Virus record (IMG/VR): IMGVR_UViG_3300032006_000095
Coordinates: 1-22,565 of that record
Source of the DNA: a virus
Length of the DNA: 22,565 nucleotides
Direction: 5' to 3' (one strand)
A program made the position numbers and the translations under genes. Shown piece by piece: positions 7,061 to 13,672 of the stretch. The notes below the pieces were generated by a model, which was given only the letters and a program-made list of their open reading frames with translations, made no database searches and was not told the DNA's origin. The stretch's first letter is position 1. Each line of letters opens with the position of its first letter.

Positions 7061-7088
7061 TTGACATATCATTTAACTCTAATATAAT
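7061..7088 (+). promoter_or_regulatory. Sigma-70-type promoter, exact consensus hexamers
   Basis: TTGACA (7061-7066), a 16-bp spacer and TATAAT (7083-7088). Both hexamers match the bacterial housekeeping consensus exactly; the spacer is one base short of optimum. Transcription would start near 7095 and run rightward into the 47-aa gene, leaving a leader of about 128 bases. Confidence 0.75.
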
Positions 7089-7113
7089 AGTGTTCTTATA
7101 CACAGGCTCCGTT

Positions 7114-7134
7114 AAAAGTGGTAAAAAAGTGGTA
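7114..7134 (+). repeat. Two 10-bp direct repeats, one helical turn apart
   Basis: AAAAGTGGTA at 7114-7123 and again at 7125-7134, with an 11-bp period. Same-face spacing suggests binding of two protein copies. The second overlaps the right arm of the inverted repeat and its -10 element. Confidence 0.55.
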
Positions 7135-7222
7135 GAATACTTATTAGGTAGAAGACTATCTCTCTATTACTAGGATCACCTTTACATATATACTATACTA
7201 ATACTTATTATAAGTTATACTT

Positions 7223-7366
7223 ATGTCTAATCCAGAGGACAGAGAACGCAACAGACTTAAACGTCAGCGTAATCTGGTAGCCAAGCACAACAAGTACAAA
7301 CCTAAAGTCTTGTCAAACAAAAAGGTATACAAGCGTACTAAGTTTGATCCTCAACAAGATAGTTAA
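7223..7366 (+). CDS. 47-aa basic phage protein (short DRERNRLKRQRN type)
   Basis: A short, strongly basic protein encoded by ATG 7223 to TAA 7364-7366. It starts MSNPEDRERNRLKRQRNLVAKHN, and Arg, Lys, Asn and His dominate throughout. I recognise this pattern (D/H-R-RN..RR...AKH...N) from tiny proteins present in very many phages with no known role; some databases group them as DUF7230. A nucleic-acid-binding role would fit the charge. It has no Shine-Dalgarno sequence; an AT-rich TATAAG ends eight bases before the ATG, so a leaderless mRNA is possible. It is the only plus-strand gene between 435 and 10960 that I support, and its last 29 bases overlap the end of the ArdC-like gene. Confidence 0.75.
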   Translation: MSNPEDRERNRLKRQRNLVAKHNKYKPKVLSNKKVYKRTKFDPQQDS

Positions 7367-8246
7367 ATGCTCTGCCTGCATCAGCGGCGGCATTAAACAG
7401 GAACTTCTTATCACTCTTTAATCGCTTCAACCAACCGTGAATATACTGTGTATGCTGTAGTCTTTCAAGCGGAATTCCCACATGGGAACATAACATAGCC
7501 GCTCCTAACTCAGCAACCAGTTCTTCATAGGCATACGCTTCATCGCCAAACCTCTTGCCTTTAGTTCTATCCAACCTGTGTTTAGCACCAGTAGCATGGA
7601 TAGTTTCATGGCCTTTGGTAGCCTCAAACTCCTGCCAAGATTCAAAGGCGGACTCTTGAGGACAGCCAACAGCATCATCTGATGGACGGTAGAACGCACG
7701 ATCACCACCATAATGGATGCCACCCTTTAGATTAATCTTCTTAATATAAGAATCAATCTCAGACCTGACATCAAACTCTTCAGGCTTAACATCAGGTACA
7801 GGATCAGGTAGTCCCGGTATCTCCTCACGGTTCCAGACTCTATAAGTCTTAGCCAAAGGGAAGTTGACCTCATCACCTGTCTGCTTGTCAGTAAACTTGT
7901 TCATCTTAAAGAACATTATCTGTTCGCTAGTATCCCAAGCATCTTCAGGAATAGGCCGATCATTACCTGTTAGTTTCTTTAACTGATTCAAAGTAAACCA
8001 GTCAACAGATTTATACTCAGATAATAGACCCAGTATCACCCAGTTAATACCGCTATATGCTCGCTTGCTTACTCCATTACGAGCAGAGATAGGCTCCAAT
8101 GCACAGTGAGTACCATCATTCTTCCACCTCTTTACCCACGGAGAGAACGGAGCATCCAATCCCTGTTTAATACAGTGATCGTACTCCTCCAGTCTGCTGA
8201 TAAGAGAAGGAACAACGGCATCATACACCTTGTCTAACGCTTTCAT
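7338..8246 (-). CDS. ArdC-like antirestriction protein with zincin peptidase domain
   Basis: A 302-aa protein of the ArdC type. The N-terminal ~130 residues carry the ssDNA-binding part (RNGVSKRAYSGINWVILGL at 56-74, matching the NaxTGRxYRGxN..lL pattern). The C-terminal domain holds the metallopeptidase motif HETIH (213-217) followed by HRLDR and YAYEELVAELGAA (238-250), whose Glu is the usual third metal ligand. Plasmid ArdC protects incoming DNA from host restriction; phage copies are presumed to do the same early in infection. The frame is open further upstream to 8363, but the ATG at 8246 is preferred: it follows the previous stop with one base between and has AGGGA upstream. Confidence 0.85.
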   Translation of the reverse strand: MKALDKVYDAVVPSLISRLEEYDHCIKQGLDAPFSPWVKRWKNDGTHCALEPISARNGVSKRAYSGINWVILGLLSEYKSVDWFTLNQLKKLTGNDRPIPEDAWDTSEQIMFFKMNKFTDKQTGDEVNFPLAKTYRVWNREEIPGLPDPVPDVKPEEFDVRSEIDSYIKKINLKGGIHYGGDRAFYRPSDDAVGCPQESAFESWQEFEATKGHETIHATGAKHRLDRTKGKRFGDEAYAYEELVAELGAAMLCSHVGIPLERLQHTQYIHGWLKRLKSDKKFLFNAAADAGRAFNYLVEDQT

Positions 8247-8247
8247 A

Positions 8248-8511
8248 TTAGTCCCTGTTTTTAGTAAAGAAGAAGCCCGTATCAAACACCTCATTAAACT
8301 TCTTAGCATAGAATGGAATCCAGTTGTTCTGTATCTTAAACTGGCCACCTGAATCCAGATCACTGTGCCATCTTAATACCTCAAAGATAGTACGCGCAGA
8401 GTAATGTTTAAAGCCTTTGTCCATCATAACTCTGGCTCTATAATTAAACTCTCCCCAGAATTCAGGATGCTCACGGTCAAACTTATCAAACGCCTCTTGT
8501 CTAGTCATCAT
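8248..8511 (-). CDS. Small conserved-type phage protein
   Basis: An 87-aa product. The pattern HPEFWGEFNYRA...KGFKHYSARTIFEVLRWHSD, then FKIQNNWIPFYAKKF, then GFFFTKNR is familiar from small proteins in many phages and prophages (F..nP.iw..F...a...i..G..hysa..I...iRw). No function is known. It is rich in aromatics. AGGAGAT precedes two adjacent ATGs (8511 and 8508); either could be used. It lies directly upstream of the ArdC-like gene. Confidence 0.75.
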   Translation of the reverse strand: MMTRQEAFDKFDREHPEFWGEFNYRARVMMDKGFKHYSARTIFEVLRWHSDLDSGGQFKIQNNWIPFYAKKFNEVFDTGFFFTKNRD

Positions 8512-8520
8512 AATTATCTC

Positions 8521-8787
8521 CTAGTGTAAGTGGAAGTAAGCCTTAAACTCAGACTCGCACAACTCCATATCATTATTAAGATCAGGATCATTCAACCAGA
8601 ACACAGGCTCTAGTTTAGTCTCCATTGGGTCACCAGTCACAGGCTCCAGTGTAATCTCATTCAGATAAAACCAAGACAACACCATCTCGTCATCATCAAA
8701 GAAGGAATCACCTACATATACTGTACCATATCCTTCAATGTCCCACGACTCAGGTGAATAGGGATCGTATCGTACTGGGTGTGGCAT
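8521..8787 (-). CDS. Highly acidic small protein
   Basis: An 88-aa protein with about 20 Asp/Glu against three Arg/Lys (estimated net charge near -17) and many aromatics. It includes a DDDE run in GDSFFDDDEMVLSWF. No domain recognised. Strong acidity and small size are typical of phage DNA-mimic inhibitors of restriction or other DNA-binding enzymes, but also of ordinary early phage proteins, so that is only a suggestion. The frame extends to 8865, but the ATG at 8787 has an ideal AAAAGGAG ribosome binding site, whereas upstream ATGs lie inside the preceding gene. Confidence 0.65.
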   Translation of the reverse strand: MPHPVRYDPYSPESWDIEGYGTVYVGDSFFDDDEMVLSWFYLNEITLEPVTGDPMETKLEPVFWLNDPDLNNDMELCESEFKAYFHLH

Positions 8788-8803
8788 AATTGCTCCTTTT
8801 CTT

Positions 8804-8992
8804 TTAGCCATAATATTCATCCGCTCGTTCAAAGTCCTCATGTTCTTGGAGTTCATCGACATCATCTCTCGGATAGGCTAACTCATACAAGTCAACCTCA
8901 AGAATACGAATAAGAGATTCAATCTCAACAGGATCAAGAAACCGTCGAGCCATCTTAACAAGCAACGTTACATTACTGTCATCCATCTGCAT
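8804..8992 (-). CDS. Very small acidic protein
   Basis: A 62-aa protein with about 18 acidic and 6 basic residues. Residues 10-40 are probably two amphipathic helices (VEIESLIRILEVDLYEL); the tail is almost entirely acidic (DDVDELQEHEDFERADE). No domain recognised. GGAG lies seven bases before the ATG and overlaps the end of the preceding gene, which stops one base before. Coupled translation with its neighbours is likely. Confidence 0.65.
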   Translation of the reverse strand: MQMDDSNVTLLVKMARRFLDPVEIESLIRILEVDLYELAYPRDDVDELQEHEDFERADEYYG

Positions 8993-8993
8993 T

Positions 8994-9209
8994 TTATTGC
9001 TCCATTTCTGCTAACTTATTAAACTCTTCATGCCATCCACCCGGATCAAACAGTATATCATGAAGAGCATCCGCTAGGCTAATCATATCTCTATGATTAA
9101 AGTAACCATCTGGTTTCTTATAAAGAACGCCTAACTTTTTACCCAAAGCCTCTAACTCTCTTAATGTATAAGAGTCAAGCAAGTTATCAACCATCTCTGT
9201 TCTAAGCAT
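8994..9209 (-). CDS. Small hypothetical protein
   Basis: A 71-aa, moderately acidic, helical product: LLDSYTLRELEALGKKLGVLYKK followed by FNHRDMISLADALHDILFDPGGW. The first part resembles a small helix-extended-helix (SAP or HeH-like) module, which often binds nucleic acid, but this is a weak resemblance. The ATG at 9209 is chosen because AGGAGA precedes it by six bases and it begins just after the previous stop; the frame continues to 9311 only within the neighbouring gene. Confidence 0.65.
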   Translation of the reverse strand: MLRTEMVDNLLDSYTLRELEALGKKLGVLYKKPDGYFNHRDMISLADALHDILFDPGGWHEEFNKLAEMEQ

Positions 9210-9219
9210 TACGTTTCTC

Positions 9220-9414
9220 CTAACCGTTGAATTGTTTGCTACCAAACTCATGTTCAAGAGCAGATCGTATCGGCCCTGACAAATCATCATATAGTTTGTC
9301 GAATTCTTCATCGCCTACTTCTGGATTGATATCGTAGGCATGGATAGCAATATAGTCTACGATTTTCTGCATCAAAAGATACTGCTTTTCTTCATTCATA
9401 TTTACATACGACAT
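9220..9414 (-). CDS. Very small acidic protein, first in the leftward early cluster
   Basis: A 64-aa acidic, helical protein (about 13 acidic, 5 basic residues) of unknown function, with DINPEVGDEEFDKLYDDL in the middle. The ATG at 9414 follows an AAGGAGA ribosome binding site with a six-base spacer; the frame runs further to 9477 only in AT-rich non-coding sequence. The leader GGTTAAGGAGAAACGTG is nearly identical to that of the next gene. It is the first gene after a 320-bp gap, so a promoter should lie between 9415 and 9736. Confidence 0.6.
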   Translation of the reverse strand: MSYVNMNEEKQYLLMQKIVDYIAIHAYDINPEVGDEEFDKLYDDLSGPIRSALEHEFGSKQFNG

Positions 9415-9437
9415 CACGTTTCTCCTTAACCTATTAA

Positions 9438-9459
9438 GTTTATTTGTTATTAAATAAAC
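9438..9459. repeat. 22-bp palindrome upstream of the acidic gene cluster
   Basis: GTTTATTT (9438-9445), six bases, then AAATAAAC (9452-9459): exact 8-bp arms. It lies between the first gene of the leftward early cluster (start 9414) and a weak leftward -10 (TATGAT, 9469-9474), where a repressor site would block transcription. All bases are A/T except the ends, so chance is possible. Confidence 0.45.
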
Positions 9460-9537
9460 ATTAATAAAATCATACACTTACACTACCTTAGTCCAGGCAT
9501 TACTCCTAAACATTTCTGCCTCGCTAATGTATTGCGT

Positions 9538-9736: not shown

Positions 9737-9771
9737 AAAAAAAGGGAGCCGAGGCCGAAGCCCCGACTCCC
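9737..9771 (-). terminator. Strong rho-independent terminator with UUCG loop
   Basis: Read on the minus strand: a 12-bp stem (5' arm GGGAGTCGGGGC) closed by a TTCG tetraloop, then seven Ts (9743-9737). Two G-U pairs make the stem perfect only in the minus-strand RNA; in the plus-strand RNA they become A-C mismatches. It therefore ends leftward transcription from the 220-aa gene. Confidence 0.9.
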
Positions 9772-9779
9772 AACCTACC

Positions 9780-10442
9780 TTAGCAGTAGGCTTTCTTGAT
9801 TGAGGCGAGATAATCAAGCCCCATCACCGCTTTGTTTTGCCACTCATCAGTCTCATCTTCAAAGCGTTTGTCAATCTTGGCAGTCGCATCGTCGAGTATC
9901 TTATCAATGCTCCGACGAATGTAGGTTCCGACATACTCAGGTTCCTCTGCGATATCCAGTACATCGTTCTCGACACGCTCAATGATATGCGTCACGGCAT
10001 CATCTCCGGCCATTTGCCACTGCTGATTCTCCAGAGCCTTACGCTGATGCGCTTTGTCCAGAGATGGCGAAGGCTGTGACAATCTGGCCTTCAACGATTT
10101 GGTTCCACCTTTAACAACGGTGCTCTCCTCAAGGAAGCCGCGACTGCTAATAACCTGAGCCTTAAACTCCTCAGCCTTCTCAGACTCTGGGGTGCAGACC
10201 CGGACAATATGCAGTACCTCACGGAGCAGATCATCCGTCTCATTAGGCACACCATCTTCATCAGCCAGAACGAAGGTCTCAGACTCGGTATCAAACGATG
10301 TCACCAGTAGCGACAAAGCCTTGCTCATCGCAGACTTACGAAGCCTAGCCCTCAGCATCGCCAACCCCGGGACATACAGATAATCCTCTTCAGAGATAAC
10401 GGTCAAAGCGAAGTTTCCTTTTGTTTCGATCTTGTTTTGCAT
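9780..10442 (-). CDS. 220-aa protein of unknown function, own transcription unit
   Basis: A soluble 220-aa product with no recognised domain. Residues ~8-60 form a mixed alpha/beta start (FALTVISEEDYLYVPGLAML); residues ~60-100 are acidic; the C-terminal half is long charged helices ending in LASIKKAYC. The ATG at 10442 is preferred over the frame's upstream limit (10502) because AAGGAGA sits five bases before it. Unlike the surrounding overlapping genes it stands alone, with its own promoter (10493-10521) and a strong terminator eight bases after the stop. Such a cassette is typical of independently regulated or recently acquired genes (morons), or of an abundant early protein. Confidence 0.75.
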   Translation of the reverse strand: MQNKIETKGNFALTVISEEDYLYVPGLAMLRARLRKSAMSKALSLLVTSFDTESETFVLADEDGVPNETDDLLREVLHIVRVCTPESEKAEEFKAQVISSRGFLEESTVVKGGTKSLKARLSQPSPSLDKAHQRKALENQQWQMAGDDAVTHIIERVENDVLDIAEEPEYVGTYIRRSIDKILDDATAKIDKRFEDETDEWQNKAVMGLDYLASIKKAYC

Positions 10443-10960: not shown

Positions 10961-13672
10961 ATGTCCATGTTTTACCGTCTACTACAGAATATGTCCAGTG
11001 ATGCTGATCTGTATGACCAGTTAAAAGATATTCGGATTGAGACCCCTCAAGAATATCAGGATTTTGTGTCAGGCAGGATAGAACCTGTATATCCTGTTGC
11101 TTCTGTTTACGGCCCATATAAGGCCGGTAAATATCTTGTAGACCTTCTCAGGAAGAATCTTTTCAAGAAAGGTGCAAAACCCACTCCTCCTACTACGGCT
11201 ATTACTACGGTAGCCAAGGAGATTGAGTCTCGCGAGACCCCGCTTCTTGAAGACTTTTCAATGCTTGATGACTTCTATTATCCCCCGCTTCTGGATCATC
11301 CTTTTGCTTTTGACAGTTATGAAGATGACAAAGCCACTATGGGCTTTCAGGATGAATCTGATCTGGCTAAAGAAGCAAAGGCTAAAAGGATCGCGGATCA
11401 AGAAAAGTTATCTAAGGCGGCTTTTAGGAGGTTAAAGACAAAATATCAGGATGAGAGAGGGTTTACCACAACAGCACCCAGAGAAGCGGCGTGGGGCGAA
11501 CCTAGCGTTTTCTGGGACAGCCTTATAGATGCTTACGCAAAAAGACTTGAAGAAGGTACAACATTTGATTGGGAACCTGCTTTAAGCGACCTTGAAGATG
11601 AATTTGAAATCGAAACGTATGGTGCAAATCCCACTCCCGGAATAATTGACGACCTCTCTTTTAGAGAGTTAGCGGAGAGACACTTTCTTGGCGATTCTTT
11701 TTTGTCGCAGGCTCCCAGACCGGCTGTATATGAAGGAAGAGGTAATCCCTTTGGCCTTGACCCTGATTTTGGCGTTGATGTAGGTGAGCCTATACCGCAA
11801 TTTGGGCAAAATCCTTCATCGTGGATGAGGGTATATGGGGAGGATCGAATCCTTCCGGGAAGCATAGGTGTTCCTACAGGATGGGCTGCTAATGCAGGAG
11901 GTGGTGAAGGTGTTTTTCTTGGGAGAGATTCAGATTGGTCACGCAACCCTTCGGAACATGTTAATCCTGCTCTTTGGGGTGAAGGTCATCAACCTGTTGT
12001 ATATTTAGGTGACCAAGCAAATCCCACAAGGTTTCCGGGAACTACAGCGGGTGGAGGAGTAACTTCTTCGATTTCCGATGATGAGGCATCCGGGTGGGCG
12101 AGGTTCAACAGACCCGATCCAGAAGAGTTAGACAAGCCTACTGACTTTGCTTTTGAAGATGTTGGCAGGGAAATGGAAGGCGATATCTACAGGGAAGAAG
12201 GAGAACCTTTCCCAGAGTTTGGAATGGGCGAGGTTCCCGCTTCTTTCTATGCCAAAGATGTTGTTAAAAGGGAAAGATTTAATCCTAAAGTAAGCCCCGG
12301 ATACGATGTTCCTGAAGGATATTATTCTTTGGCCGCTGAATTGGCTAGTGGCGACAAAGAGTTTAAAGACTATTCCAAATCAGAGCAGAAGGCTATCAAA
12401 AAGGAAATAGAATTTAGATCACTTCAATACCCTTATGTAGAAGAGGTTCTTGTTGACGAGGGTAGAGATTCAAAGATGCAGATGCTTTCTGCATCCGATC
12501 AAGGTGTAGACGTAGAAGATAAAAGGTCATTACGAGACTTTCTTAATGAAACCCCTCTCGACTTTACAGTAATAACCCAAGAGGATCGTTATGCTGATGT
12601 TCATGCGGATTATGGCGAACATGAAGAAAATGCTTTTGTTTCGCTAATTTATACAGGTCTGGGGCCGGGGGATCGCGGTTATATTCATTATGCGCCATTT
12701 AAAGAAGCATCTCCTAATAAATTAGCAAGAGGATTAGAATATCCTGCGGCATTTGTTCGATATTTTCCTAATTGGAGTGCTAATACTTTAACTGTCAATG
12801 AAGCCCAGATAGACACCAGAAACTCAAGCGAACCATTTTTAGATAAAGCGAGAGGTGGATATAACAGACTGCATGAAAAACTTGCTCAACAAACTCTTAT
12901 AGATTGGGCGAAGTCTGACAAAGAACAATTAATGATACCTCTTGGGGAATATCATTTTACAAAAAATCATGACGATAGAAGATTTCGTAGATCAATAGGC
13001 GCTTATATTCAAAATGTTGTAGGAGATATTGAGGCAAGCGAGCACTCTGAACTTATTGATTCCTTTAATGCGACTGGTTCTGATATTGTAAAAAACATGA
13101 CGGATGAGTTTTACGACATTTTAAACATTCGTGATAAACCGTCAAGCGATGGGCCAATGGATAGAAGCAAGTTCATAAAGGCTTATGAAAAATATTCTGC
13201 AAAGTGGAAGGATATACTGGGAGAAAGTATTGATGAAAGAGGTGATTCAAACGGAAGGAGGTTTTCTTGGCAACAACATTTTAGACCAAGTGACTTTTTC
13301 AAAAGTTTAGCAGGAACAAAAGAAAAATACACCACAGAAGATTACGAACGAATTAAGGATTCATACAATGGTCATCCTGCCGCTGATTTTCATTCATCAA
13401 GGGTTGAGTATCAAGGAAAAACAAATCATTACGATAGATACCTAAAAGCCTTAAAACATGAATTAAAGAAAAAAGGTTGGGAAGGTGAATTAATACCTGT
13501 CAATGAGTTTGAATACCATGAACAAGAGAATCCTGCGGAATACGAAGGAACCGTAAAAAGACCTACACACTTCTTGCTAAAAGCAACTCCAGAACTTAAA
13601 GACAAAATTCTAGAGAAAGGTTTTTCTATTACACAAATTCTTGATAGTATTAAGAAGCGGCAATACGCATGA
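10961..13672 (+). CDS. Large phage protein of unknown role at the head of the late operon
   Basis: A 903-aa soluble, acidic protein with no signal peptide or transmembrane segment. Residues ~1-450 are low in recognisable structure, with many short Pro/Gly/Asp-rich stretches. The second half has features I associate with large polyvalent phage proteins: VNEAQID at 612-618 (others have I.E.QSD), followed by a helical segment with LIDWAKSDKEQLMIPLGE, and near the end TPELKDKILEKG (876-887), like the common TPEM...il..G ending. That link is from memory and tentative. Its weak ribosome binding site (GAGAG) and ATGA overlap with the small terminase place it first in the packaging/head operon. It could be a virion or ejected protein. 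Confidence 0.55.
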   Translation: MSMFYRLLQNMSSDADLYDQLKDIRIETPQEYQDFVSGRIEPVYPVASVYGPYKAGKYLVDLLRKNLFKKGAKPTPPTTAITTVAKEIESRETPLLEDFSMLDDFYYPPLLDHPFAFDSYEDDKATMGFQDESDLAKEAKAKRIADQEKLSKAAFRRLKTKYQDERGFTTTAPREAAWGEPSVFWDSLIDAYAKRLEEGTTFDWEPALSDLEDEFEIETYGANPTPGIIDDLSFRELAERHFLGDSFLSQAPRPAVYEGRGNPFGLDPDFGVDVGEPIPQFGQNPSSWMRVYGEDRILPGSIGVPTGWAANAGGGEGVFLGRDSDWSRNPSEHVNPALWGEGHQPVVYLGDQANPTRFPGTTAGGGVTSSISDDEASGWARFNRPDPEELDKPTDFAFEDVGREMEGDIYREEGEPFPEFGMGEVPASFYAKDVVKRERFNPKVSPGYDVPEGYYSLAAELASGDKEFKDYSKSEQKAIKKEIEFRSLQYPYVEEVLVDEGRDSKMQMLSASDQGVDVEDKRSLRDFLNETPLDFTVITQEDRYADVHADYGEHEENAFVSLIYTGLGPGDRGYIHYAPFKEASPNKLARGLEYPAAFVRYFPNWSANTLTVNEAQIDTRNSSEPFLDKARGGYNRLHEKLAQQTLIDWAKSDKEQLMIPLGEYHFTKNHDDRRFRRSIGAYIQNVVGDIEASEHSELIDSFNATGSDIVKNMTDEFYDILNIRDKPSSDGPMDRSKFIKAYEKYSAKWKDILGESIDERGDSNGRRFSWQQHFRPSDFFKSLAGTKEKYTTEDYERIKDSYNGHPAADFHSSRVEYQGKTNHYDRYLKALKHELKKKGWEGELIPVNEFEYHEQENPAEYEGTVKRPTHFLLKATPELKDKILEKGFSITQILDSIKKRQYA

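Follow-up and report, generated by a model that had tools for sequence, protein, structure and literature searches.

The minus strand of the window (the whole linear virus record analysed, 22,565 bases) carries six genes between positions 7338 and 9414, in the order g6, g5, g4, g3, g2 and ardC, and on balance we lean towards reading this stretch as an early, modular island that encodes small host-takeover or counter-defence proteins, most of them acidic, and ends in a genuine ArdC gene. We favor this reading because the genes lie at the head of the non-structural arm, are small, acidic and subject to turnover, and are accompanied by a confirmed member of an anti-restriction family.

Gene order and genomic setting

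The window comes from a podovirus-like phage. Its rightward arm, from position 13,669, holds terminase, portal, scaffold-like and capsid genes, while a leftward non-structural arm starts at about 10,440, runs down and diverges from the packaging operon; the leftward arm contains genes that on inspection look ribonucleotide-reductase-like and HNH-like, a gene for a Cas4/PD-(D/E)XK-like nuclease, and others. In its large terminase the phage shares 51-54% identity with VPp1 and other Vibrio phages; the annotated map of VPp1 is likewise divergent, with small genes leading its non-structural arm. A megablast comparison of the window with phage records gave no match. A gene for a 903-aa protein (10961-13672, plus strand) lies before the small terminase gene, and distant relatives have other genes there, differing in number and length. 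A contig from an Actinomycetota metagenome bin (L040, 1-9987 of PBPX01000013.1), which belongs to the same phage lineage and counts among the 12 contigs compared below, consists of phage DNA in close synteny with the window; its binning may be a weak hint at the host, or the contig may have been mis-binned.

The first-pass annotation had described an ArdC-like gene preceded by five small genes in one operon, and all six are found (Table 1), as one unit that behaves like an exchangeable accessory island. Net charges (K+R-D-E, computed from the starts best supported by a Shine-Dalgarno sequence) were recomputed as -17, -12, -8 and -6 for the proteins that it had put at about -17, -12 and -8 with a fourth moderately acidic. 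Values of pN are far below pS in ardC, g2, g3 and g4, and g5 follows the same trend more weakly; the frames are therefore regarded as real genes. For g3, the best start is at 8787 (MPHPV...), where AAAAGGAGCAATT stands ahead of the ATG and AAAAGGAG serves as the Shine-Dalgarno sequence. A longer start (MAKRKG) would bring the net charge to -14, and its N-terminal extension occurs in no relative.

Table 1. Features of the six-gene stretch and its upstream flank
Feature	Position	Strand	Description
ardC-like gene	7338..8246	-	302 aa, net -5
g2	8248..8511	-	87 aa, net +1; phrog_13625
g3	8521..8787	-	88 aa, net -17; constant island member
g4	8804..8992	-	62 aa, net -12; only in some relatives
g5	8994..9209	-	71 aa, net -6; helical (predicted); nearly constant
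g6	9220..9414	-	64 aa, net -8; cassette
Leader/promoter-region candidate	9411..9530	-	Upstream of first small gene; conserved where g6 is missing
Intrinsic terminator	9744..9771	-	12-bp stem, T run; downstream of 220-aa gene
220-aa gene	9780..10442	-	Net -12; hypervariable first-gene slot

The putative leader region is 90-92% identical over 91-121 bp in the related contigs L003 and L007 and 80% identical over 61 bp in L006, and no strong sigma-70 promoter match was found ahead of the small-gene operon. The intrinsic terminator separates the gene for the 220-aa protein from this operon, and the 39 bp around it are 97-100% identical in distant relatives. The first-gene slot itself is filled in relatives by other proteins of 143-277 aa with no detected similarity, and a search for relatives of the 220-aa protein in phages gave none.

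On the plus strand, a perfect TTGACA-16-TATAAT match (7061-7088) is located about 134 bp upstream of a 47-aa ORF (7223-7366) that is conserved, basic (net +10) and convergent into the 3' end of ardC; the match is also perfect in L003 and L006 and is weaker or absent in others. Repeats of a GTGGTA / TACCAC motif, possibly an operator, occur in intergenic DNA downstream of ardC, at about 7090-7150 in the window and also in L003, L006, L010 and L021.

The ArdC-family protein

The 302-aa protein is, judged by its sequence, a genuine member of the ArdC family, for which anti-restriction activity is predicted. The original ArdC-like call is upheld by the agreement of Pfam domains, PHROG assignment, solved-structure match and active-site residues. 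An ArdC-N domain (PF08401, E = 2e-7, 31.5 bits against a cutoff of 22.6) spans residues 32-138 and is followed by a zincin-like metallopeptidase domain (PF18818, E = 4e-39, 134 bits) at residues 176-288. The protein matches the anti-restriction family phrog_7245 with an E-value of 2e-55, and its residues 25-299 align with the crystal structures of plasmid ArdC (6i89/6sna) with an E-value of 4e-42. Residues H213-E214-x-x-H217, E241/E242 and Y268, invariant in all eight aligned copies, line up with the HExxH motif, EE pair and tyrosine of the solved ArdC, where they coordinate the metal or act in catalysis (PMC7213743).

Plasmid ArdC binds single-stranded DNA and has an anti-restriction role in conjugation, for which phenotype the protease residue E229 of the R388 protein is dispensable (PMC7213743). 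The window copy resembles the ArdC of IncW plasmids (R388/pSa; 6i89, 6sna) in its two-domain architecture, length and metal-site residues, but it is borne by a phage and shares less than 40% identity with the best-matching copies from plasmids and named phages. Its relatives were found in 48 phage records and 2,927 plasmid records, and a published account has the ArdC-N domain as frequent in conjugative elements but seldom present in phage-type polyvalent proteins (PMC5512222).

Acidity and cassette exchange before ardC

The acidity of the small proteins, pointed out in the first-pass annotation, is real, statistically clear and conserved. A charge of -8 per 100 aa is not attained by any of the window's 16 other small genes. 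The five-gene set is more acidic than these (Mann-Whitney p = 0.006), and the same test also finds it more acidic than the small genes annotated in T7 (p = 0.004) and in VPp1 (p = 0.0006). Across eight related contigs, acidity of at least -8 per 100 aa is found in 57% of the small genes before ardC versus 4% of those after it, with median charges per 100 aa of -8.7 and -1.0, respectively. The p-value of this last comparison (about 1e-6, for genes called with a simple in-house ORF script) overstates the independent evidence because many of the compared genes are homologous. Acidity is a property of the stretch before ardC, and the other small genes of the arm do not share it. It is by itself not diagnostic, since the region also holds acidic zinc-ribbon-like cassettes and neutral HTH-like ones.

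Comparison with relatives reveals a cassette island, located next to the divergent packaging operon, in which the neighbors of g3 and ardC are swapped. In 12 other contigs of the same lineage, g3 is followed by ardC after zero, one or (in L013) a few genes. These two genes are constant and g5 is nearly so, whereas g4, g6 and g2 are variable; the replacement cassettes encode cysteine-rich zinc-ribbon-like proteins, an HTH-like protein and a winged-helix-like protein (profile matches below curated cutoffs). Cassette edges around the constant g3 and ardC are sharp in DNA comparisons. At the DNA level, the part of g3 from 8769 to 8593 can be aligned nearly everywhere, but the remainder of the gene cannot be aligned with the more distant relatives, and only the final 62 bp of g4 can be aligned with L010 (93.5% identity). 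In relatives g2 is missing or has other small genes in its place, and one relative carries g5 in duplicate. Exchangeable accessory islands are the usual setting of counter-defence genes. The stretch is also comparable to the anti-defence islands in plasmid leading regions (PMC11541004), in that an anti-restriction gene is accompanied by small uncharacterized genes in a region likely to be expressed early; it differs from them in being a phage operon next to packaging genes, with small genes that have no informative family match.

A second phage group also carries g3 (L022-L028, L033 and L035, 57-66% identity), and in L033 and L035 it is adjoined by g6 at 95-97% amino-acid identity. An ArdC profile found no match in seven records of this group (up to 56 kb, possibly fragments), and the positive record did match. 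A PF18818 search of the group was equally empty, but it also missed all 14 of its control genomes, so that the absence of ArdC rests mainly on the seven-record profile search. The terminase of the window was undetectable in all four second-group records examined. The occurrence of g3 and g6 without detectable ArdC or window terminase suggests that the two genes move between phage groups and that the link to ArdC is not obligatory. Co-occurrence with ArdC, on which the first-pass annotation had built, thus stood in 12 of 12 other lineage contigs but not in this second group. Downstream of g3 or g6 in the latter lies a gene for a very acidic protein of 123-131 aa (net -18 to -20; L022 7323-7694, L035 665-1051, L033 555-950) with no family match. 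A protein of 147-150 aa is also encoded downstream of g3 (L035 2063-2515, with an HExxH motif, HELSHH; L022 8706-9149), and its L022 copy gave no Pfam peptidase match.

These observations bear on a plainer explanation, namely that the acidic genes are accessory genes of the ordinary kind, serving phage replication or regulation in various ways, and that their adjacency to ardC is a coincidence of synteny among close relatives. The contigs with ArdC belong to one phage lineage, and the co-occurrence within it is therefore a matter of shared descent; g3 and g6 occur elsewhere without detectable ArdC, and HTH-like and zinc-ribbon-like proteins are among the cassettes. On the other hand, the acidity is concentrated in the island as compared with the other small genes of the arm, and fast cassette turnover with exchange between groups would be typical of arms-race genes. 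We consider this explanation possible but somewhat unlikely.

Predicted folds and possible targets of the small proteins

Under the host-takeover and counter-defence reading, the stretch would open the leftward, non-structural arm, and its small proteins would be made soon after DNA entry, a timing that we infer from gene order. They would attach to, and so block, the host enzymes that work on this DNA, either restriction enzymes and other nucleases or polymerase, while ArdC, with its expected single-stranded DNA binding and its metallopeptidase domain, would protect the DNA from restriction. The best candidate for an inhibitor would be g3, which is constant and strongly acidic, and which may act on a protein partner through a charged β-barrel surface.

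The g3 homologues examined have net charges of -13 to -18, with 15 conserved acidic columns and almost no conserved basic column, and substitution patterns indicate that the gene is under purifying selection. An AF2 model of g3 (pLDDT 81, pTM 0.72; 10 sequences stand behind each of the structure models) shows a small β-rich fold with one helix, predicted to be an SH3/Tudor-like β-barrel without significant structural match. All structural matches are weak and include PWWP, CarD RID, Tudor and BAH domains, with a best Foldseek E-value of 0.026; the best VIA-align match is CarD of T. thermophilus (4l5g, Z = 6.2, rmsd of 2.0 over 56 residues), which is within the common or noise range of that tool. 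The predicted barrel is thus similar to the RNA-polymerase-interacting domain of CarD/CdnL/Mfd and to Tudor/PWWP/SH3-like barrels, but there is no sequence similarity to them and the scores are of a size that common arrangements also reach. Searches of Pfam, PHROG and NCBIfam families gave no match for g3, and neither the annotated phage collection nor plasmids yielded relatives of it.

The resemblance to CarD raises the question of whether the small genes are general takeover factors directed against host transcription, with a CarD-like g3 that binds the β lobe of RNA polymerase. Besides 4l5g, VIA-align returned several CarD/Mfd/CdnL RID domains, and RNA polymerase is a frequent target of early phage genes (T7 gp2, Ocr). 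Since a Z-score near 6 falls within the noise of the tool, Foldseek E-values exceed 0.02, BAH and Tudor domains score equally, and neither Pfam nor sequence searches of solved structures link g3 to CarD, we regard this explanation as very unlikely.

The remaining small proteins are less informative. Residues 1-74 of the 87 in g2 match phrog_13625 (E = 1.3e-13), which is the unassigned phage pattern that had been noticed in one of the small genes. This family is widespread in marine and other phages of diverse kinds (16 phage records, with cyanophages, a Roseobacter phage and a pelagiphage among them), and elsewhere stands in other contexts, for example adjoining the primase/polymerase in CRP-901. 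It was the sole match when the small genes were compared with Pfam, PHROGs, PADLOC and NCBIfam, and no defence or anti-defence family was among the results. In g4 the charge sits mainly in the C-terminal tail, DDVDELQEHEDFERADEYYG, which hardly varies. The AF2 model of g5 is helical (pLDDT 79), with weak structural matches to residues 66-125 of 1zbh (Z = 6.3) and to a SAP domain (2rno, Z = 4.1) and a weak Rho_N match (E = 0.036, in 2 of 10 members); it seems to be a small protein of helices with a weak SAP/Rho-N-like character, a likeness that would point to nucleic-acid binding. The annotated phage collection contained no relatives of g5, the search for relatives of g6 gave chance-level matches only, and sequence searches of solved structures with g3, g5 and g2 gave chance-level matches or none. 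A recurring C-terminal YGG of the small proteins was considered as a tag and rejected; in L007 and L022 its coding bases include GGAGG just before the next start, and it is probably a ribosome-binding-site overlap.

The first-pass annotation had proposed that these proteins are DNA-mimic inhibitors clustered with ArdC. In its specific form, this means that g3, and possibly g4 and g6, would act like Ocr and gp5.9 and fill the DNA-binding clefts of nucleases such as restriction enzymes; it is a special case of the host-takeover and counter-defence reading and overlaps with it. The homologues of g3 are strongly negative with hardly any conserved basic residues, and g3 (-17 over 88 aa), g4 (-12 over 62) and g6 (-8 over 64) are similar in size and charge to known mimics (of the Ocr, ArdA, gp5.9 and UGI type), with ArdC adjoining. 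T7 offers a precedent, if a tiny one: only 2 of its 24 small genes are comparably acidic, namely gene 0.3 (Ocr, -28), which inhibits restriction enzymes, BREX and the host RNA polymerase, and gp5.9 (-8), an inhibitor of RecBCD and MukBEF that is regarded as a DNA mimic. The analogy with these likewise small and strongly acidic phage proteins is helpful but does not extend to any sequence or detected structural resemblance, and the window has a row of unrelated acidic cassettes. Structure prediction, which had been suggested as a check for mimic surfaces, gave the idea no support: g3 is modeled as a compact SH3/Tudor-like barrel and g5 as helical, and no known DNA-mimic fold is among the matches listed for either, all of which are weak. 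Among the other members, g5 (-6 over 71) is borderline and only moderately acidic, and g2 (+1 over 87) is neutral. The acidity, the neighboring ArdC and the island context agree with the proposal, whereas no structural or family match to any DNA mimic was found and g2 is not acidic. We hold DNA mimicry as such to be plausible for g3 but unlikely.

A bolder version of the host-takeover and counter-defence reading, which we put forward as a speculation with a low chance of being correct, is that g3 is the founding member of a new family of phage inhibitors, acidic and SH3/Tudor-like, directed against a host DNA-acting enzyme or RNA polymerase, and that it forms the exchangeable core of an early island whose neighboring slots are reshuffled between distinct phage groups. 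A literature search on acidic hypervariable early phage gene regions returned nothing. The libraries searched carry no annotation for the g3 family, which persists in phage groups whose packaging genes differ. If the reading is true, the slots before ardC in this lineage would make a ready list of candidate counter-defence genes from uncultured phages, picked out by their location, acidity and turnover and not by homology.
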